NCBI RefSeq assembly: GCF_026343115.1
Contig: NZ_JAPEMC010000001.1
Coordinates: 5,311,001 to 5,375,000, forward strand
Length of the DNA stretch: 64,000 nt
Direction: 5' to 3'
Source of the DNA: Streptomyces sp. NBC_00102
GTDB lineage: Bacteria > Actinomycetota > Actinomycetes > Streptomycetales > Streptomycetaceae
Position numbers and translations under genes: made by a program. Of the stretch, positions 1,460 through 11,100 are shown one piece after another. Within the stretch, counting starts at the first letter, position 1, and every line of letters starts with the position of its first letter. A model generated the notes under the pieces. That model saw only the letters and a program-made list of their open reading frames with translations, did not search any database and was not told where the DNA came from.

Positions 1460-2797
1460 ATGGGACGCGAACAGTGGAAGAGGATCTGGGTCGGCTCGGC
1501 CGGGAACATGGTCGAGTGGTTCGACTGGTTCGTGTACGCGACCTTCGCGGTCTACTTCGCGGACGCGTTCTTCCCCGAGGGCAACGGGACCGCCAACCTC
1601 ATGAACACCATGGGCATCTTCGCCGTGGGGTTCTTCATGCGGCCGGTCGGCGGCTGGCTGCTCGGACGCATCGGGGACCGCCGGGGCCGCAAGGCGGCGC
1701 TCACCCTCACCGTCACGCTGATGTCGGCCTCCGCGATCCTCATCGCCGTCGCCCCGACGTACGCGGTCGCCGGGTACGGCGGGGTCGCCGTGCTCATGGT
1801 GGCCCGGCTGCTCCAAGGGCTCTCCGTGGGCGGTGAGTACGCGGCCAGCGCCACGTACCTCACCGAGGCCTCACGGCCCGACCGGCGCGGGTTCGCCTCC
1901 AGCTTCCAGTACGTGTCGATGACCGCCGGTCAGCTGATCGGGCTCGGGCTCCTCATCCTGCTCCAGCACACGCTTTCCGAGGAGGCCCTGCACGACTGGG
2001 GCTGGCGGGTGCCGTTCGTCGTCGGGGCGCTCGGCGCGGCCGTCGTCTTCTACCTGCGGCGCACCATGCTGGAGACCGAGGTCTACACGGAGTCCGGCGC
2101 CGCCGAGGACGCCGACCGGGGCACCCTCAAGGCCCTGTGGGCGCACCGGCGCGAGGCGTTCCTCGTCGTCGCGCTGACCATGGGCGGGACCGTCGCGTAC
2201 TACACGTACACGACGTATTTGACGAAGTTCCTCTCCAAGAGCGCCGGGATGGAGAAGTCCACCGCCACCCTCGTCAGCTTCTGCGCGCTCTTCGTCTTCA
2301 TGTGCCTCCAGCCGCTCGCCGGGCTGCTCTCCGACCGGATCGGGCGGCGCCCGCTGCTCATCGGGTTCGCCGTCGGGTCCACCTTCCTGACGGTGCCGGT
2401 CATGATGATGCTCAAGCACGCCGGGACGTTCTGGCCCGCTCTCGGCCTCTCGCTGCTGGCCCTGGTCGTCGTCACCGGCTACACCTCGATCAACGCCTGC
2501 GTGAAGGCCGAGCTCTTCCCCACCGGCATCCGCGCGCTGGGGGTGGCCCTGCCGTACGCCGTCGCCAACGCGCTCTTCGGCGGGACCGCCGAGTACATCG
2601 CGCTCTGGTTCAAGAACGCGGGCTTCGAATCCGGGTACTTCTGGTACGTGGCCGGCTGCGCCGCCGTCTCGCTCGTCGTCTACCTGGGCATGCGCGAGAC
2701 CCGCCGTCTCGACCTGCACCGCATCGGCGCGGGGGAGCCCGCCGTGCCCGGTCCGGTACGGCCCTCGGACGAGACCGGTGTCACGACCGCATTCTGA
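1460..2797 (+). CDS. MFS transporter, metabolite:H+ symporter (MHS, KgtP-like) family
   Basis: A 445-residue integral membrane protein with about twelve hydrophobic segments. The N-terminal GNMVEWFDWFVYATFA is the signature of the MHS branch of the major facilitator superfamily (alpha-ketoglutarate, proline/betaine and citrate symporters: 'G...EWYDF..Y'). Loop motifs GDRRGRK (after TM2) and SDRIGRRPLL (after TM8), and the RLLQGLSVGGEYAAS motif of TM4, support the family. The likely cargo is a dicarboxylate or small organic acid taken up with protons; the sequence does not decide which. The ATG at 1460 is chosen because the conserved helix begins 14 residues later. It is followed by the cimA leader region and probably has its own promoter. 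Confidence 0.88.
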   Translation: MGREQWKRIWVGSAGNMVEWFDWFVYATFAVYFADAFFPEGNGTANLMNTMGIFAVGFFMRPVGGWLLGRIGDRRGRKAALTLTVTLMSASAILIAVAPTYAVAGYGGVAVLMVARLLQGLSVGGEYAASATYLTEASRPDRRGFASSFQYVSMTAGQLIGLGLLILLQHTLSEEALHDWGWRVPFVVGALGAAVVFYLRRTMLETEVYTESGAAEDADRGTLKALWAHRREAFLVVALTMGGTVAYYTYTTYLTKFLSKSAGMEKSTATLVSFCALFVFMCLQPLAGLLSDRIGRRPLLIGFAVGSTFLTVPVMMMLKHAGTFWPALGLSLLALVVVTGYTSINACVKAELFPTGIRALGVALPYAVANALFGGTAEYIALWFKNAGFESGYFWYVAGCAAVSLVVYLGMRETRRLDLHRIGAGEPAVPGPVRPSDETGVTTAF

Positions 2798-2827
2798 GAC
2801 GGGCCCGTCACCGGGTCCGTGCTGTGC

Positions 2828-2842
2828 CAAACTGCTCCCGTG
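2828..2842 (+). promoter_or_regulatory. Putative -10 box and leaderless start of the cimA leader transcript
   Basis: The hexamer CAAACT at 2828-2833 is followed after six bases by the GTG (2840-2842) of a short open frame, with no Shine-Dalgarno between them. This geometry (-10 box 5-9 bases before a start codon) recurs elsewhere in the window and fits a leaderless mRNA. CAAACT is a weak match to TAnnnT. Confidence 0.4.
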
Positions 2843-2890
2843 TCCTCGTTGTCCACGATTATTGGCAGCAGGCGCGCCGGTCCGCAGTGA
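2840..2890 (+). CDS. Putative regulatory leader peptide of cimA (16 residues)
   Basis: Open frame GTG..TGA encoding MSSLSTIIGSRRAGPQ. Two consecutive isoleucine codons are both ATT (2858-2863), a codon rarely used in this GC-rich genome where ATC dominates, and a Leu TTG precedes them. The frame lies upstream of two small hairpins and a strong intrinsic terminator, all before cimA, an enzyme of the isoleucine pathway. This is the layout of amino-acid attenuation: ribosome stalling at scarce Ile-tRNA would decide whether the terminator forms. The peptide itself would have no other function. The function is inferred from layout only, but length, codon choice and context agree. Confidence 0.6.
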   Translation: MSSLSTIIGSRRAGPQ

Positions 2891-2895
2891 CGTCC

Positions 2896-2970
2896 CGTAC
2901 CACCACGTACGGCACGCTCACCGTGCCCCAGACCCGCGCGCAGACCTCTCGCACCCGCGAGGGGTTTTTT
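2896..2970 (+). terminator. cimA leader attenuator (two small hairpins plus intrinsic terminator)
   Basis: CGTAC (2896-2900) can pair with GTACG (2907-2911), and GGCACG (2911-2916) with CGTGCC (2922-2927). The two hairpins share base 2911 and are mutually exclusive at that point. The terminator is CCTCTCG (2945-2951), loop CACCCG, CGAGGGG (2958-2964), then six T residues (2965-2970), a rare canonical T-run for this genome. It lies about 100 bases before the cimA start and 55 bases after the leader-peptide stop, so it would stop transcription before cimA unless an alternative fold wins. I could not identify a convincing antiterminator strand by eye. Confidence 0.65.
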
Positions 2971-3073
2971 CGTTTTCCGGCCCCCACCCTGGCCTGGACG
3001 GCGTGCGCGGGATGATGGGGGCAAGTGGAGCCCGATCGTCCGGATCCACTCATCCGACAGGAGTCGCATCAGC

Positions 3074-4681
3074 ATGACCACCAAGGCCACCGCCACCGAC
3101 GACAGTTTCCATGTCTTCGACACCACCCTGCGCGACGGTGCACAGCGTGAAGGCATCAACCTGACGGTCGCCGACAAGCTGACCATCGCCCGGCACCTGG
3201 ACGACTTCGGCGTCGGATTCATCGAGGGCGGCTGGCCCGGCGCCAACCCCCGGGACACCGAGTTCTTCGCCCGCGCCCAGCAGGAGATCACCTTCGCCAA
3301 CGCCCAGCTCGTGGCGTTCGGCGCGACCCGCCGGGCCGGTGGCAAGGCCGCCGAGGACCCGCAGGTCAAGGCGCTGCTCGACTCCGGCGCCCCGGTGATC
3401 ACCCTGGTCGCCAAGTCGCACGACCGCCACGTCGAACTCGCCCTGCGCACCACCCTGGACGAGAACCTGGAGATGGTCCGCGACACCGTCTCGTACCTGC
3501 GCGAGCAGGGCCGGCGGGTCTTCGTCGACTGCGAGCACTTCTTCGACGGCTACCGCGCCAACCCCGAGTACGCGAAGTCCGTCGTCCGTGCCGCCTCCGA
3601 GGCCGGTGCCGACGTCGTCATCCTCTGCGACACCAACGGCGGGATGCTCCCCGCCCAGGTCCAGGCCGTCGTCTCCACCGTGCTCGCCGACACCGGTGCC
3701 CGGCTGGGCATCCACGCCCAGGACGACACCGGCTGCGCCGTCGCCAACACCCTCGCCGCCGTCGACGCGGGCGCCACCCACGTCCAGTGCACCGCCAACG
3801 GCTACGGCGAACGCGTCGGCAACGCCAACCTCTTCCCGGTCGTCGCCGCCCTGGAACTGAAGTACGGCAAGAAGGTGCTCCCCGAGGGCGCGCTCGGCGA
3901 GATGACCCGCATCTCCCACGCCATCGCCGAGGTCGTCAACCTGACCCCCTCCACGCACCAGCCGTACGTGGGAGTTTCGGCCTTCGCGCACAAGGCCGGG
4001 CTGCACGCCTCCGCGATCAAGGTCGACCCCGACCTCTACCAGCACATCGACCCCGCCCTCGTCGGCAACAGCATGCGGATGCTCGTCTCCGACATGGCCG
4101 GACGCGCCTCCATCGAGCTGAAGGGCAAGGAGCTCGGCATCGACCTGGGTGGCGACCGCGAGCTGGTCGGCCGCGTCGTCGAGCGGGTCAAGGAGCGCGA
4201 ACTCCGCGGCTACACCTACGAGGCGGCCGACGCCTCCTTCGAACTGCTGCTCCGCGGCGAGGTAGCGGGCACCGCGCCCCGCTACTTCCGCACCGAGTCG
4301 TGGCGGGCCATCGTCGAGGACCGCCCCGACGGCGTGCACGCCAACGAGGCGACCGTGAAGCTCTGGGCCAAGGGCGAGCGGATCGTCGCCACCGCCGAGG
4401 GCAACGGACCCGTCAACGCCCTGGACCGGGCGCTCCGGGTGGCCCTGGAGCGGATCTACCCGCAGCTCGCCAAGCTGGAACTGGTCGACTACAAGGTCCG
4501 CATCCTGGAAGGGCGCACCGGCACCGAGTCCACCACCCGAGTCCTCATCACCACGGGTGACGGAACCGGCGAGTGGTCGACCGTCGGCGTCGCGGAGAAC
4601 GTCATCGCCGCGTCCTGGCAGGCGCTGGAGGACGCGTACACCTTCGGTCTGCTGCGGGCCGGGATCGAGCCGACGGAGTAG
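3074..4681 (+). CDS. cimA: (R)-citramalate synthase
   Basis: A 535-residue cytoplasmic enzyme condensing acetyl-CoA with pyruvate to citramalate, the threonine-independent entry to isoleucine (or the homologous alpha-isopropylmalate/homocitrate reaction). The HMGL-like catalytic barrel begins with DTTLRDGAQREGI (about residues 16-28). It continues with the metal-site region GIHAQDDTGCAVAN and the GERVGNANLFPVV loop. A C-terminal regulatory LeuA-dimer domain follows (about 400-535, e.g. RILEGRTGTESTTRVLI). GIHAQDD and GERVGN are the CimA-type variants of the HTHND and GERCGN motifs of isopropylmalate synthase. The ATG at 3074 lies 13 bases after a GACAGGAG Shine-Dalgarno. Expression is probably controlled by the upstream leader peptide and attenuator. 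The next gene is convergent. Confidence 0.92.
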   Translation: MTTKATATDDSFHVFDTTLRDGAQREGINLTVADKLTIARHLDDFGVGFIEGGWPGANPRDTEFFARAQQEITFANAQLVAFGATRRAGGKAAEDPQVKALLDSGAPVITLVAKSHDRHVELALRTTLDENLEMVRDTVSYLREQGRRVFVDCEHFFDGYRANPEYAKSVVRAASEAGADVVILCDTNGGMLPAQVQAVVSTVLADTGARLGIHAQDDTGCAVANTLAAVDAGATHVQCTANGYGERVGNANLFPVVAALELKYGKKVLPEGALGEMTRISHAIAEVVNLTPSTHQPYVGVSAFAHKAGLHASAIKVDPDLYQHIDPALVGNSMRMLVSDMAGRASIELKGKELGIDLGGDRELVGRVVERVKERELRGYTYEAADASFELLLRGEVAGTAPRYFRTESWRAIVEDRPDGVHANEATVKLWAKGERIVATAEGNGPVNALDRALRVALERIYPQLAKLELVDYKVRILEGRTGTESTTRVLITTGDGTGEWSTVGVAENVIAASWQALEDAYTFGLLRAGIEPTE

Positions 4682-4738: not shown

Positions 4739-6625
4739 TCACTGGAGCCGCCACTTCTGGTTGGCGGCCCCGGTGCAGCTCCAGATCTGGGCGCGCGCCC
4801 CGTTGGCCGTGGAGGCGTCCGTGACGTCGAGGCACTTGTTCGCCGCCGTGTTCACCACGTCCCCGGTGGTCGCGTTGTACGTCCACCGCTGGGCCCCCGT
4901 GCCGTTGCAGGTGTAGAGCTGGACCTTCGCGCCGTCCGCGGTCGACGCCGAGGTCACGTCCAGGCAGGCGCCCAGCGCGCGGATCGTGCCGTCGGACTGG
5001 ACCGTCCAGCGCTGCGCGGCCGAGCCGTTGCAGTCGTAGAGCTGGACCGCCGTGCCGTCCGCCGAGCTGCCGTTCGCCGCGTCCAGGCACTTGCCGCCGG
5101 TGCCGGTGAACGCACCCGAGGTGCCGGTCGAGGTGCCGGTGCCGGACTGGGTGCCGGACCAGGTGAAGGTGGCCGAGGTGTGGGCCGGCAGGGAGTAACC
5201 GAAGGTCGAGCCGCCCCAGTTGACGGTGAGCTGCTGGGCCGAGGAGCCGCCGTTGTAGGCGATCAGCGCCTTGGAGCCGTCGGTGTTGCGCCAGGCGACG
5301 TTCGGGACGGTGGAGCTGGCGGTGGAGGCGATCCGGGAGGCGCCGGGGCGGACGAACTTCGTCAGGTGGCCCATCGTGTAGTACTCGATGTTGTAGTCCA
5401 CCTGCCCGCTCCTGGCGTCACCGTTGTGGACCGTGATCAGCCCGTCGCAGGTGCCGCAGCCGCCGTTGTGCGGGCCTCGGTTCTGGTCCACCGCGAGGGA
5501 CCACTTGGTGACCGACTTCGCCCAGTTGCGGGTGTAGTCGATGATGTTGAGCATGTCCTCCTTCTGCTGATCGGCGATCCAGGTGCCGCCCGAGTGCTCG
5601 GTCTGGAAGGCGTCCATCGTGGGGTACTGGTTGTGCACCGCGGTCTGCTTGGCGATGTCGCCGCCGTAGCCGTGCCAGGCGACCCCGCCGAAGTTGGGGT
5701 GGTTGCGCACCGCCGCGTCGTCCACGGTCGGCGCGGCGTACGCGTCGTAGGTGTCCCAGTTCCAGTCGTGCGCCAGCACCTTGGTGGTGAGACCGGCGGC
5801 CTGGAGCTTCGGCAGCAGCTCGCTCTTGGTGAAGTACGCGAGCCCCGAGCCGTTCCAGCTCATCGAGGGGTAGCCCGAGCAGCAGGTCGGCTCGTTCTGC
5901 GCGGTGACGTAGCTCACCGGGACGCCCTGGGCCTGGTACGCCTGGAGGTACTTCACGAAGTAGTCGGCGTACGTGCCGTAGTTCTCGGCCTTCAGCCAGC
6001 CGCCGTTGAGCTGGCCGCTGTCCTTCATCCAGGCGGGGGCGGTCCAGGGCGAGGCCATCGTGGTGAGCGCCGGGTTGAGCTGCTTGGCCTGCTTGGTCAG
6101 CGGGAGCACGTCCGCGAGGTCGTGCGCCACCGAGAACTTCGCCAGCGTGGGGTCGGTCTGCCCGGCGGGCAGGTCGTCGTAGGTGTACCCGGTCCGCGCC
6201 AGGTCCGAACCGCCCATCGGGTTACGGACGAACGAGAGCCCGATGCCCTCCGTCGGCGAGAAGAGCTTCTTCATCGTGGCGTCCCGGGTCGCGTCGCTCA
6301 GCGCCCCGCTGCTCTTCATCAGCCAGGCCGCCGTGTCGGTGAAGGACGCGCCGCCGCCGGTGAACGTCTGGTACCGGGTGTTCTCGTCCACCGTCACCGT
6401 GGTGCCCGCGCTCCCGCTGCCCGCGGCGAAGGAGACCGGCGTCTGGGTTTGGAGGCCCCGGGTGACATGGCGGCCGCCGGAGTCGTCGGTGGTGGTCAGC
6501 ACGATGGAGACACTCTCGCCGGCCGCCTGGGCGGCGGGTGCCGCCAGTGCGGTGAGGCCGGCCGCGGCGAGCGCGGTCGCCAGGAGCGCCGTCGCCGTTT
6601 TCCGCGGTCCGTTCGATCGAATCAT
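4739..6625 (-). CDS. Secreted GH30-family glycosidase with C-terminal ricin-type (CBM13) lectin
   Basis: A 628-residue exoenzyme. A Sec signal peptide (about 1-36, cleavage after AQAA) precedes a glycoside hydrolase family 30 (alpha/beta)8 catalytic domain. The proton donor is the Glu in TAQNEP (about E245) and the nucleophile the Glu in QTEHSGG (about E343). A short beta domain and a Ser/Thr/Gly linker (about 480-500) lead to a beta-trefoil lectin with three QxW repeats (QRW, QRW, QKW). GH30 members include glucosylceramidases, beta-1,6-glucanases and xylanases; I cannot choose between them. The ATG at 6623-6625 directly begins the signal peptide. It is divergent from a LacI-type regulator, which may control it. 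It converges with cimA. Confidence 0.88.
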   Translation of the reverse strand: MIRSNGPRKTATALLATALAAAGLTALAAPAAQAAGESVSIVLTTTDDSGGRHVTRGLQTQTPVSFAAGSGSAGTTVTVDENTRYQTFTGGGASFTDTAAWLMKSSGALSDATRDATMKKLFSPTEGIGLSFVRNPMGGSDLARTGYTYDDLPAGQTDPTLAKFSVAHDLADVLPLTKQAKQLNPALTTMASPWTAPAWMKDSGQLNGGWLKAENYGTYADYFVKYLQAYQAQGVPVSYVTAQNEPTCCSGYPSMSWNGSGLAYFTKSELLPKLQAAGLTTKVLAHDWNWDTYDAYAAPTVDDAAVRNHPNFGGVAWHGYGGDIAKQTAVHNQYPTMDAFQTEHSGGTWIADQQKEDMLNIIDYTRNWAKSVTKWSLAVDQNRGPHNGGCGTCDGLITVHNGDARSGQVDYNIEYYTMGHLTKFVRPGASRIASTASSTVPNVAWRNTDGSKALIAYNGGSSAQQLTVNWGGSTFGYSLPAHTSATFTWSGTQSGTGTSTGTSGAFTGTGGKCLDAANGSSADGTAVQLYDCNGSAAQRWTVQSDGTIRALGACLDVTSASTADGAKVQLYTCNGTGAQRWTYNATTGDVVNTAANKCLDVTDASTANGARAQIWSCTGAANQKWRLQ

Positions 6626-6994
6626 GGGGGAACGCCCTTCTTCGGCACAGGGGTGGGGTGCTGCCGTCGATCGAGGCGTGAGTGAACTGCCCCCGACAGC
6701 CCGCGTCAAGGGGGTGCGTACGTACAAGAGTTGAAGGCATGAGCGCCCTCTCCTGTCCGCCGGACGGGTATGGATCAATCTCGACGTGAAGTATTGACGG
6801 CTCTGTTCGGGCGGGGTTAACTCCAGCCGCGACGCCGGTACCGGTTCCGGGACCGGTACCGCGAAGTGGCCGCTCCCCGGGCGGCTTTCGTGCTCGGCCC
6901 TGCGTCCCGGCGCGGCGAGAACCCGCCGGCCCGGTGGTGAAAACGGCTGTTGTGCCCCGTACGTCCCGTGTTCCGCCTGGTCAGGGAGGCCCCG
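6626..6994. other. Divergent intergenic region between the GH30 gene and the LacI regulator
   Basis: A 369-base region without a gene. It must contain the promoters for both divergent genes. It holds a perfect 9-base inverted repeat, GGTACCGGT (6837-6845) and ACCGGTACC (6852-6860), separated by TCCGGG. There is also a looser TCAAT...ATTGA pair around 6775-6797. Neither has the central CG of a classical LacI operator, so the regulator's binding site is not established. AGGGAGG at 6983-6989 is the ribosome site of the regulator. Confidence 0.5.
6837..6860. repeat. Perfect inverted repeat in the GH30/LacI intergenic region
   Basis: Two 9-base arms with a 6-base spacer. Because the flanking genes are divergent this is not a terminator; it is a candidate operator or a 5'-UTR hairpin. 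Confidence 0.45.
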
Positions 6995-7969
6995 TTGCGC
7001 GTCACCATCGCCGATGTGGCCCGTGCCGCCGGAGTCAGCAAGACCACCGTCTCGCGCGTACTCAACACCAAGTCGGACGTGGACCGTTCCACCGCCTCCC
7101 GCGTTCGTGAAGTGATCGCACACCTCGGCTACGTCCCCAGCTCCGGAGCGGTCGGCCTGGCCCGGGGCAGCAGCCGCACCGTCGGGATGCTGGTGCCCTC
7201 GCTGACCTGGTCCTGGATGGGCGACGTCCTCCAGGGCGTGGTGGACACCGTCGAGGCGGCCGAGTACGGCCTGCTGCTCTTCACCTGCAACCGGGGCGCC
7301 GAGTCCGTCCGCCGCTTCACCACCCAGGTCTCGGCCCGCGCCTTCGACGGGCTCGTGGTCGTGGAACCGGAGAACACCCTCGGCCACCTCACCGCGTTCC
7401 ACCGCAGCGGCCTGCCGATCGTGCTGATCGACGACCGGGGCCACCACCCCGAGTTCCCCTCGGTCGTGACCACCAACCACGAGGGCGGTGCGAGCGCCGC
7501 CCGTCACCTGCTGGCCGACGGGCGCACCCGCCCGCTGGTCCTCAGCGGGCCCGCGCACTACGGCTGCGTACGCGAACGGCTCGACGGATTCCGGTCCGTG
7601 CTGCCGGGCGCCCTCGTCGCCCAGGGCGACTTCACCGAACGCGGCGGCGAACGCGTCATGAGCGAACTCCTCGCCTCCAAAACGCCGTTCGACTCCGTTT
7701 TCGCGCACAACGACGTCAGCGCCACCGGCGCCCTGAGAGCGCTCCACGCCGCCGGGCGCCGGGTACCGGACGACGTCGCCCTCATCGGCTTCGACGACAT
7801 CCCGATGGCCGCGCACACCGCGCCCCCGCTGACCACCGTCCGCCAGCCCACCCGGGCGATGGGCGAGACGGCGGCCCGGATGCTCCTCGCCCATCTCGAC
7901 GGCAGGCCCGCCCCGGACGAACCGGTCGTGCTCCCCACGGAGCTCGTGGTCCGCCGCTCGGCGCCCTGA
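6995..7969 (+). CDS. LacI-family transcriptional regulator
   Basis: A 324-residue repressor. The N-terminal LacI helix-turn-helix and hinge (RVTIADVARAAGVSKTTVSRVLNT, then VRE..AHLGYVPS) spans residues 1-55. A periplasmic-binding-protein-like sugar-sensing core follows (about 60-320), with FDDIPMAAHTAPPLTTVRQP near the end, typical of the family. The start is taken as TTG at 6995 because an AGGAGG-like site lies five bases before it; an in-frame upstream start at 6950 would add 15 poorly conserved residues. It stands between the GH30 gene (divergent) and a GH3 beta-glucosidase (same strand, 161 bases downstream), so both are plausible targets. The effector is presumably an oligosaccharide. 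Confidence 0.88.
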   Translation: MRVTIADVARAAGVSKTTVSRVLNTKSDVDRSTASRVREVIAHLGYVPSSGAVGLARGSSRTVGMLVPSLTWSWMGDVLQGVVDTVEAAEYGLLLFTCNRGAESVRRFTTQVSARAFDGLVVVEPENTLGHLTAFHRSGLPIVLIDDRGHHPEFPSVVTTNHEGGASAARHLLADGRTRPLVLSGPAHYGCVRERLDGFRSVLPGALVAQGDFTERGGERVMSELLASKTPFDSVFAHNDVSATGALRALHAAGRRVPDDVALIGFDDIPMAAHTAPPLTTVRQPTRAMGETAARMLLAHLDGRPAPDEPVVLPTELVVRRSAP

Positions 7970-8130
7970 CCCCCACCCGGCGCACCCCGCGGCTTCGGAC
8001 GGCCGCACGCACCGGTACACCCACACACCCCCACGGGCTCCGGCCCCGCAAGAACCTCCCGCCCCACCCCCCTCGCCCCACCCGTACCGCTGCCGGACCC
8101 CCGCGCAGCCGAGACGAGAGAAGAGCCGCA

Positions 8131-11100
8131 ATGCCAGCTACCCGTCACCGAAGAGGATCGGCGCGGGCCCTCCTCGCCGCCGTCACGGTCCTCGCCGGAC
8201 TGATCACGGCCGCCGTCCCCGCGGCGGCCGACGACCCCGCGCCGGTGCTCGTCGACCGGTACGAGGGCGAGGTCCCCCTCAGCGCTCCGCCCGCCGACTC
8301 GATCTTCACCTGGGGCTCGGACGCCGACGACCAGCCGAAGCTCGCCTTCACCGAGCGCGCCGACGCCCCCGAGGGCTCCAAGGTCCTCGAAGGCACCTAC
8401 GACATCAGCGGCTGGGGCGGGCTGAGCCACGAGTTCGCCGTCGACCAGGCCCCCCAGGACTGGAGCGCCCACAAGGGCATCCGCTTCTGGTGGTACGGGC
8501 AGAACAAGGCGCCCCTGCCGCCCGGTTCCGGCAAGAAGATCAGCTTCGAGATCAAGGACGGCGGCGCCAACGGCGGTGCGTCCGAGCTGTGGACCATGTC
8601 CTTCACCGACGACTGGGAGGGCTGGCACCAGGTCGAGGTCCCGTTCGCGGACTTCGTCTACCGCGGCGACTACCAGCCCGTCGGCGGCATCGACCACATC
8701 CTCGGCCTCGACCGGATGTGGGGCTACGCCCTCACCCTGCCGACCGGCGCCCCCGGCTCCTTCGCCATCGACGGCATGGAGCTCTACGGCAAGGCCGACC
8801 CGGCGCTGACCGCCGGCATCGCCACCGACGCCACCGTGCACCCGGTCGACAACGGAGGCTCCGCGAGCATCGGCCTCACCCTCTCCACCACCGGCGGCCT
8901 GCCCATCGAGGAGCCCGTCACCGTCGCGTACACCACCGAGGGCGGCACCGCGACGGCCGGCACCGACTACACCCCGGTCACCGGTACGTACACCTTCCCC
9001 GCGGGCACCGCGTCCGGCGCGACCCACACCGTCACGGTGACCACCAAGAAGGCGAAGAAGGCGTCCGAGGCCCGGACCGTCCCGCTCGTCCTCACCGTCA
9101 CCGGCGCCAAGGCCCCGACGGAGACCCCCCAGGTCGTCATCAACGCCCACGGCCTGCCCTACCAGAACGCCAAGCTCCCGGTGAAGCAGCGCGTCGCCGA
9201 CCTTCTGAAGCGCCTCTCGCCCGCCGAGAAGGCCGGCCAGATGACGCAGGCCGAGCGCAACGCGCTGCGCAGCCCCGGCGACATCGCCTCCTACGACCTC
9301 GGCTCGCTGCTCTCCGGCGGCGGCTCGGTCCCCACGCCCAACACCCCCGAGGCGTGGGCGTCGATGATCGACTCGTTCCAGCTGCGCGCCCAGGCGACCC
9401 GCTTCCAGATCCCGCTGATCTACGGCGTGGACGCGGTGCACGGCCACAACAACGTCGTCGGGTCGACGATCATGCCGCACAACATCGGCATCGGCGCCAC
9501 CCGCGACCCGCAGACCGCCGAGAAGACCGGCGCGGTCACCGCGAGCGAGGTCCGCGCCACCGGCGTCCCGTGGGACTTCGCCCCCTGCCTCTGCGTCACC
9601 CGTGACGAGCGCTGGGGCCGGTCCTACGAGTCCTACGGCGAGGACCCGGCGCTCGTCGAGTCCATGGAGACCGTGATCCAGGGCATGCAGGGCGCCGCGA
9701 ACGGCAGCGACCTGGACCGCGACGACAAGGTGCTCGCCACCGCGAAGCACTACGTCGGCGACGGCGGCACCGAGTTCGGTTCCTCCTCCACCGGTTCGTA
9801 CACGATCGACCAGGGCGTCACCAAGGTCACCCGCGAGGAGCTGGAGGCGGTGCACCTCGCGCCGTTCCAGGAGGCGGTGGACCGCGGTGTCGGCACCGTC
9901 ATGCCGTCCTACTCCTCCCTGGACATCCTGGGCGACGACCAGGGCCCGGTGAAGATGCACGGCAACGCCGAGATGATCAACGGCGTCCTCAAGGACCGGA
10001 TGGGCTTCGAGGGCTTCGTCATCAGCGACTGGCAGGCCATCGACCAGCTCCCCGGCGACTACGCCAGCGACGTCCGCACCTCGGTCAACGCCGGCCTCGA
10101 CATGATCATGGTGCCGACCGCGTACCAGGACTTCACCACCACGCTCAAGAGCGAGGTCTCCGCGGGCCGCATCAGCCAGGCCCGCATCGACGACGCGGTC
10201 TCCCGCATCCTGACCCAGAAGTTCAAGCTGGGCCTCTTCGAGAACCCCTACGCGGACACCTCGAACATCGACGACATCGGCTCGGACGCGCACCGCGCGG
10301 TGGCCCGCGAGGCGGCCGCCAAGTCCCAGGTGCTGCTGAAGAACGACGGCGCCGTCCTCCCGCTGAAGGCGGACCAGAAGGTCTACGTCGCCGGCTCCAA
10401 CGCCGACAACATCGGCAACCAGGCCGGTGGCTGGACCGTCAGCTGGCAGGGCTCCTCCGGTGACATCACCGAGGGCACCACGATCCTGGAGGGCATGAAG
10501 AAGGACGCCTCCTCGGTCACCTACTCCAAGGACGCCTCCGCCTCCACCGACGGCTACGACGTGGGTGTGGTCGTCGTCGGCGAGACCCCGTACGCCGAGG
10601 GCATCGGCGACGTCGGCAACGGCAACGACCTGGAGCTCACGGCCGCCGACAAGGCCGCGATCGACAAGGTCTGCGCCGCGATGAAGTGCGCCGTCCTGGT
10701 CGTCTCCGGCCGCCCGCAGCTCATCGGCGACCGCCTCGGCGACATCGACGCCCTGGTCGCCTCCTGGCTCCCGGGCACCGAGGGCGACGGCGTGGCCGAC
10801 GTGCTCTACGGCAAGCGTGCCTTCACCGGCCAGCTGCCCGTCACCTGGCCGAAGTCCGAGACCCAGCTGCCCATCAACGTGGGCGACGCCGCCTACGACC
10901 CGCAGTTCCCCTTCGGCTGGGGTCTCACCACCCTGAAGAAGGCCCCCGCCGGCGGCGAGGTCACCCTGACCGCCCTCCAGGTGGCCGCCGGGGTCGCCGA
11001 GAAGCTCCACCTCGGCAAGACCGCGGCGGGCAAGGCGATCGTGGACCAGGCCCGGCTGCTGGTCCAGCAGAAGACCGGCGGCAACCTGACGGCGGCGGTC

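Follow-up and report, generated by a model that had tools for sequence, protein, structure and literature searches.

The leader of citramalate synthase gene cimA in Streptomyces sp. NBC_00102 is probably an isoleucine-responsive, ribosome-mediated transcription attenuator, as judged by sequence comparison. An isoleucine-codon leader attenuator of cimA had been proposed in a first-pass annotation of this DNA. That proposal is borne out in the conservation of the start codon, the isoleucine codons and the terminator, in covariation, and in codons that follow the gene, but it missed a partner hairpin, hereinafter designated P1. In the window, the terminator begins at the nucleotide after the last one of P1, and the two share no strand.

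The cimA leader

In the window, the whole 64,000-nt stretch of DNA that was analysed, a 276-nt leader separates a transporter gene (1460-2797) from cimA (3074-4681). The top NCBIfam models for the transporter gene are of the metabolite/H+ symporter type, with scores below their cut-offs. The cimA product catalyses the first step of the threonine-independent route to isoleucine; the cimA gene of S. coelicolor is presumably SCO5529. A large frame at 4739-8131 on the minus strand is, by eye, glycoside hydrolase-like with ricin-type lectin repeats at its end. The features of the leader and of cimA are as follows.

2825..2833, plus strand: −10-like element TGC-CAAACT; its xAxxxT spacing is conserved upstream of the start codon
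2840..2890, plus strand: leader ORF MSSLSTIIGSRRAGPQ followed by a stop, 16 codons, GTG start (kept in the genus), predicted leaderless
2858..2863, plus strand: regulatory codons ATT ATT (Ile Ile), conserved in-frame isoleucine codons
2872..2882, plus strand: P1 helix, 5' strand GCGCGCCGGUC, pairs with 2931-2941; covariation outside the genus
2883..2925, plus strand: apical continuation of P1, contains the hairpin CCGUAC(CACCAC)GUACGG at 2895-2912
2931..2941, plus strand: P1 helix, 3' strand GACCCGCGCGC, from folding and comparison; covariation outside the genus
2942..2967, plus strand: intrinsic terminator hairpin, arms 2942-2952 and 2957-2967, loop ACCC, 0 nt after P1
2965..2970, plus strand: U-tract of six T, read from the sequence, overlaps the lowest terminator pairs
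3059..3063, plus strand: AGGAG, likely Shine-Dalgarno sequence of cimA, read from the sequence
3074..4681, plus strand: cimA, citramalate synthase, 535 aa (TIGR00977, 635 bits against a cut-off of 450)

The 16-codon frame annotated at 2840-2890 is present as a GTG frame encoding MSSLSTIIGSRRAGPQ. GTG serves as start codon in 100 leaders of the genus set and ATG in one; this set comprises the 101 distinct sequences among 110 aligned leaders (the window, 80 loci and 29 genus genomes). Upstream of it stands the element TGC-CAAACT, which we take to be an extended −10. The xAxxxT motif ends 6 nt 5' of the start codon in 91/91 placed leaders (genus set plus L116, from a sister genus) and lies 5-7 nt 5' of it in 51/67 other leaders, against a background of 5.5%. 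The constant 6-nt spacing points to a leaderless message; transcription would start at or near the GTG at 2840. In 11 of the 101 genus leaders a 1-nt deletion after the isoleucine codons shifts the frame while the RNA is kept, which suggests that the peptide tail is unimportant and that the isoleucine codons and the RNA are what matters.

In-frame isoleucine codons

The tandem ATT at 2858-2863 is found in the sequence as annotated. The first isoleucine codon is ATT in all 101 distinct genus leaders, while the second is ATT in 67, ATC in 29, ATG in 4 and ACC in 1. Tandem ATT is thus usual, not universal. A single isoleucine codon is left in 5/101 genus leaders, which counts against an isoleucine attenuator.

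The earlier argument that ATT is rare and its doubling not due to chance holds up in the counts. ATT accounts for 0/20 isoleucine codons in the window cimA and 0/13 in the upstream gene. In the genus, it accounts for 157/178 leader isoleucine codons (91 leaders, 90 from the genus set plus L116), compared with 7/1518 in 80 cimA bodies from the genus search. Outside the genus, the corresponding numbers are 79/143 leader codons and 55/1012 cimA-body codons (Fisher test of ATT vs ATC, p 6e-46). The codons are also bound to the frame. Specifically, 66/66 placed non-genus cimA leaders have an isoleucine codon in the leader frame at most 20 nt upstream of P1, compared with 1/66 and 6/66 for the other two frames. 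Six non-genus cimA leaders and 11 of the genus set were left unplaced by the script; in the six, isoleucine codons ahead of a stop are visible by eye. A short ORF with codons for the pathway amino acid is present in all 91 placed leaders (genus set plus L116). Loss of the frame and of ATT with retention of the terminator, which would speak against the attenuator, did not occur.

P1 and the terminator

As annotated, a terminator with a six-T run at 2965-2970 is present, between the leader ORF and the structural gene. The two small hairpins annotated at 2896-2927 do not hold up as a conserved pair: the first (2895-2912) forms the apical portion of a long stem-loop, and the second (2912-2926) was rejected as a unit because it is not conserved across the genus leaders by eye. 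In the window, the basal helix of this stem-loop, P1, has ten pairs and one C-C mismatch and runs on into the apical stem, whose sequence and length vary among genus leaders while its pairing is largely kept (by eye). The annotation had also stated that no antiterminator is visible. A partner hairpin does exist, namely P1, and is strongly conserved; it misses the terminator, so the statement was right in that the layout is not that of E. coli.

Across the 101 genus leaders, the 3' strand of P1 does not vary and the 5' strand differs in a single leader. Because P1 is nearly invariant in the genus, covariation support comes from other genera. In an unfitted MAFFT alignment of 36 leaders (A3), 57 both-side changes are observed, compared with 16.2 +/- 3.8 in shuffled alignments, with 0/500 as high; a structure-fitted alignment of 83 rows (A2) gives 176 compared with 38.5 shuffled. 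A weaker measure, the number of further pair types in A3, gives 24 compared with 20.9, and 17/500 shuffles reach it. P1 pairs 1-4 (GCGC) are invariant in 36/36 leaders of A3, the next two show compensated variation, and pairing fails at pair 7 in 11/36 and at pair 8 in 10/36.

The gap between P1 and the terminator is 0 nt in 100/101 leaders of the genus set and 1 nt in the remaining one. For 79 leaders from outside this set, which precede cimA or other genes, it is 0 nt in 63, 1 nt in 13, 2 nt in 2 and 3 nt in 1; L192 and L222 are omitted from the resulting count of 180 leaders. A perfect helix of at least 6 bp lies within 3 nt of the terminator core in 100/120 leaders, compared with 24/90 other terminator-like sites, chosen by a looser terminator definition, and 143/600 random positions. 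Stricter controls yielded few other terminators, 4 and then 5, of which 4/5 are also adjacent to a helix. The first adjacency control had a context too short for the long Streptomyces P1, and all 15 leaders were scored not adjacent.

P1 and the terminator are predicted to coexist. In the 98 loci folded, the terminator still contributes −12 to −21.7 kcal/mol when P1 is present; by folding energy the two do not exclude each other, which counts against the attenuator. No conserved alternative partner for the terminator 5' arm was found by folding these loci.

Spread in the genus and beyond

By DNA, the leader is matched in 293/295 genus genomes, the position relative to cimA not being checked for each. 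The two genomes without a match (G081 and G178) are fragmented assemblies. The leader lies upstream of cimA in all of the best 80 of 583 DNA matches, 78 of which are titled Streptomyces.

A covariance model built from 27 genus-set leaders (R1) matches 136/296 class genomes in 55/108 genera. Outside the genus it gives 110 matches in 107 genomes, and the 80 loci examined among them stand before cimA (72), ilvB (5), leuA (1, L232), an ilvA-like gene (1, L204) and a gene for a short protein (1, L234). One ilvB call (L205) was made by NCBIfam and the other four were read from translations; the ilvA-like gene, for a threonine ammonia-lyase, scores below family cut-offs. At L234, a leader MFTPRIII-stop precedes a short protein with an ACT-domain match below cut-off. 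The short form of the leader is typically ~100 nt long and consists of a start, ~8-14 codons with isoleucine before the P1 foot, a stop just before or inside P1, then P1 and the terminator.

A second model, built from 36 leaders and spanning P1 and the terminator (R2), matches 215/296 class genomes in 94/108 genera. An R2 match anywhere in the genome is present in 204/237 cimA-positive genomes compared with 11/59 cimA-negative ones (Fisher p 5e-23); 33/237 cimA-positive genomes have none. In the phylum sample, R2 matches 40/119 genomes. Twenty phylum-level loci were examined, with ilvB in 13 cases (~0.05-1.2 kb downstream), leuA in 1, cimA in 3 (~2 kb downstream) and no branched-chain gene identified in 3 (L287, on a short contig, L296 and L302); in 17/20, P1 and the terminator are separated by 0-1 nt. 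By eye, the match at L302 precedes an isocitrate lyase-like gene, with a frame GTA GCC ATC GCC TAG, and at L296 a prephenate dehydratase-like open frame starts ~200 nt downstream. It is possible that the layout was recruited to other genes at these two loci, or that both matches arose by chance. Taken together, the comparison proposed as a check of the annotation indicates that the start, the in-frame isoleucine codons and the terminator are kept in the genus and beyond, and that the P1 stem covaries outside the genus.

The same layout before other branched-chain genes

By best tblastn hit to four reference proteins, 42 further R2 loci were assigned to ilvB (18), leuS (12), cimA (6), ilvA (2), leuA (1) and none of these (3); leuS was called by NCBIfam for L242 and L247 and read from the protein start for the remainder. 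L274, L275 and L282 were rejected as members of the layout, since no branched-chain gene follows them and the matches appear to be spurious. At 17/18 ilvB, 10/12 leuS, 2/2 ilvA, 1/1 leuA and 5/6 cimA loci, the gap is 0-1 nt. Of the two other leuS loci, one has a gap of 2 nt between the P1-like hairpin and the terminator and one gave no result. No gap was obtained at 4/59 loci measured (one ilvB, one leuS and two phylum-level).

The leader peptides differ by gene: LLLTGPR-like before leuS, ILVL or LVVL types before ilvB, II or III before cimA, AIT or GIT before ilvA, and LLLIE before leuA; none was returned for the leuS leader L242. In ilvB and leuS leaders (for example L241, L244, L254 and L263), regulatory codons such as ATT, GTA and CTT look rare for GC-rich genomes, counts having been made for ATT in cimA leaders only. 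Three loci (L204, L266 and L267) have threonine ammonia-lyase-like genes with an isoleucine codon in the leader (MAIT-stop, MGIT-stop). The switch may thus be found on both entry routes to isoleucine, depending on the lineage.

In the genome of the window itself, R2 finds the cimA leader and, both weakly, the ilvB leader (L241, C1:5278734-5278838, E 0.003) and the leuS leader (L242, C1:1848317-1848393, E 0.05). The ilvB leader lies ~35 kb upstream of cimA, and its peptide is that of S. lividans IlvL, MRTRILVLGKRVG.

Proposed mechanism

The attenuator would work as follows. Transcription would start at about the GTG at 2840, and a ribosome would translate the leaderless frame. When Ile-tRNA is plentiful, the ribosome would reach the stop codon and cover most of the P1 5' strand, so that P1 is blocked, the terminator folds and cimA is off. 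When Ile-tRNA is scarce, the ribosome would stall on the ATT at 2858 with its front edge at the foot of P1. P1 would then fold flush (0 nt) against the terminator, with no nucleotide shared, and its GC-clamped duplex, fixed at the base of the terminator stem, would keep that stem out of the RNA polymerase exit channel. Because P1 and the terminator can coexist, the terminator 5' arm has no conserved partner and the flush placement exceeds background, such a steric block is the most likely way in which termination is prevented. The frame, the codons, P1, the terminator, their spacing, conservation and covariation are seen in the sequences; the direction of control, the stalling and the site of transcription start are, like the steric step, inferred.

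The spacing fits an attenuator with P1 as its starvation structure. We modelled a 26-nt ribosome centred on the codon, a figure given in PMC13236596. Of the first 10 nt of the P1 5' strand, the model ribosome on the first isoleucine codon covers none in 91/91 leaders (genus set plus L116) and 0-3 nt in 63/66 other leaders. On the stop codon, it covers 6-7 nt (genus set plus L116) or 8-10 nt (others). On the last isoleucine codon, it covers 5-7 nt in 55/66 non-genus leaders. The model therefore needs the stall at the first isoleucine codon.

The direction of control is taken by analogy with M. tuberculosis ilvB1, where induction was lost once the LVVI codons had been replaced by AAAA (PMC13236596). 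Counting against the model, in work cited by PMC1262725, changed regulatory codons were without effect for S. coelicolor ilvB, which has the same layout here.

Could P1 instead act by pausing or timing, so that the ribosome can catch up, with some other effect of the stalled ribosome (NusG coupling, Rho or pushing of RNA polymerase) bringing about antitermination? A hairpin ahead of the terminator is the normal timing device of the E. coli trp leader, and P1 would probably emerge as RNA polymerase nears the terminator. Such a hairpin would nevertheless need neither to abut the terminator nor to keep its GCGC foot invariant (36/36), and the footprint spacing fits release and masking of P1. We consider this unlikely.

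A classical attenuator, in which a hidden antiterminator takes a terminator arm by strand exchange, possibly through a pseudoknot or short-lived pairing, is less likely still. In its favour, PMC1262725 describes the Streptomyces leuS leader as classical, with antiterminator and terminator hairpins, and PMC13236596 gives mutually exclusive structures for ilvB1. In the window, short GGUC/GACC matches between the leader and the terminator foot can also be seen by eye. Strand sharing of the E. coli trp type is not what is found, however: P1 and the terminator are disjoint and abutting, so classical strand exchange is not supported, and P1 ends 0-1 nt before the terminator in 177/180 leaders. In folds of the 98 loci that stop at the terminator loop, 98/98 keep 4 or more of the 6 basal P1 pairs, and 16% of the terminator 5' arm is paired on average. 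In 16/98 loci at least half of this arm is otherwise paired before the 3' arm is made, which counts against the flush-hairpin reading. One specific antiterminator, formed by the P1 3' strand and the terminator 3' arm, was rejected, as a compensated change in L063 and L069 breaks this pairing and keeps the terminator (by eye).

A riboswitch, T-box or nascent-peptide arrest in place of codon sensing is very improbable. Nucleotide conservation in the genus is strong, as such an element would have it, but the conserved bases sit in helices or regulatory codons. Rfam gave no match for window positions 2600-3200 at E up to 10 and, for eight related loci at E up to 1, nothing except a tRNA in L263, on which grounds a riboswitch or T-box was discarded. 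Arrest by the nascent peptide was discarded because the peptide beyond the isoleucine codons varies and is frameshifted in the clade of 11/101 genus leaders.

Least probable, and dismissed here, is a plain terminator, made of two hairpins, that belongs to the upstream transporter gene and has a short frame next to it by chance: a terminator does stand between the two genes, but the −10-like element and start codon are conserved downstream of the transporter gene, the isoleucine codons are in frame (66/66 vs 1 and 6), and the layout goes with branched-chain genes in many genera.

Codon-dependent control by P1, probably steric, is the preferred reading for cimA. Extended to the Actinomycetota, it would mean that one old attenuator layout serves cimA, ilvA, ilvB, leuA and leuS, with an antiterminator that never competes for a terminator strand and a ribosome-gated flush hairpin that blocks sterically in the RNA polymerase exit channel. 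We put this forward tentatively, as a generalization that has somewhat less than an even chance of being right.

The leader gives cimA a predicted control and brings several actinobacterial leaders under one layout. It raises the question of whether a terminator can be switched off by a hairpin flush against it when no strands are exchanged. Use of the leader as an isoleucine sensor in GC-rich hosts is also conceivable.

Comparison with known systems

In the trp, ilv and his attenuators of E. coli, codon-dependent stalling picks the terminator or another structure, and the antiterminator shares a strand with the terminator. The stalling logic proposed for cimA is alike; the differences are that P1 shares no strand and that a leaderless start is predicted.

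Leaders of ilvB and leuS in Streptomyces have been published (PMC1262725, PMC8079986), as has that of ilvB1 in M. tuberculosis (PMC13236596). Table 4 of PMC8079986 gives eight S. lividans leader peptides, none of them before cimA, and no cimA leader is reported in the portion of PMC1262725 considered here. Our search for papers on a leader of cimA or citramalate synthase brought up an unrelated methanogen paper alone. With no cimA leader in this literature and no match in Rfam, what appears to be new is cimA as a gene added to the published ilvB/leuS-type leaders, and the flush-hairpin layout as a variant.

The closest relative is the actinobacterial ilvB leader (PMC1262725; ilvB1 of M. tuberculosis, PMC13236596; ilvL of S. 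lividans, PMC8079986), which, as described there, has an ORF with branched-chain codons and a terminator, as in cimA. In 2005, the way in which ilvB is regulated was described as not clear (PMC1262725). ilvB leaders carry isoleucine, leucine and valine codons together, whereas cimA leaders carry isoleucine codons; and the ilvB1 structures are mutually exclusive as published (PMC13236596), whereas P1 and the terminator of cimA can coexist. The Streptomyces leuS attenuator (PMC1262725; leuL2 in PMC8079986) likewise combines a short leucine-codon ORF with a P1-like hairpin and a terminator in the 12 leuS loci found here. It differs from the cimA leader in its leucine codons and in controlling a tRNA synthetase. 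Finally, the LEU element before leuA in Actinobacteria has a leucine-codon leader ORF, like the present layout; compared by its description in PMC1262725, it is a pseudoknot in which a base stem pairs to the Shine-Dalgarno box.
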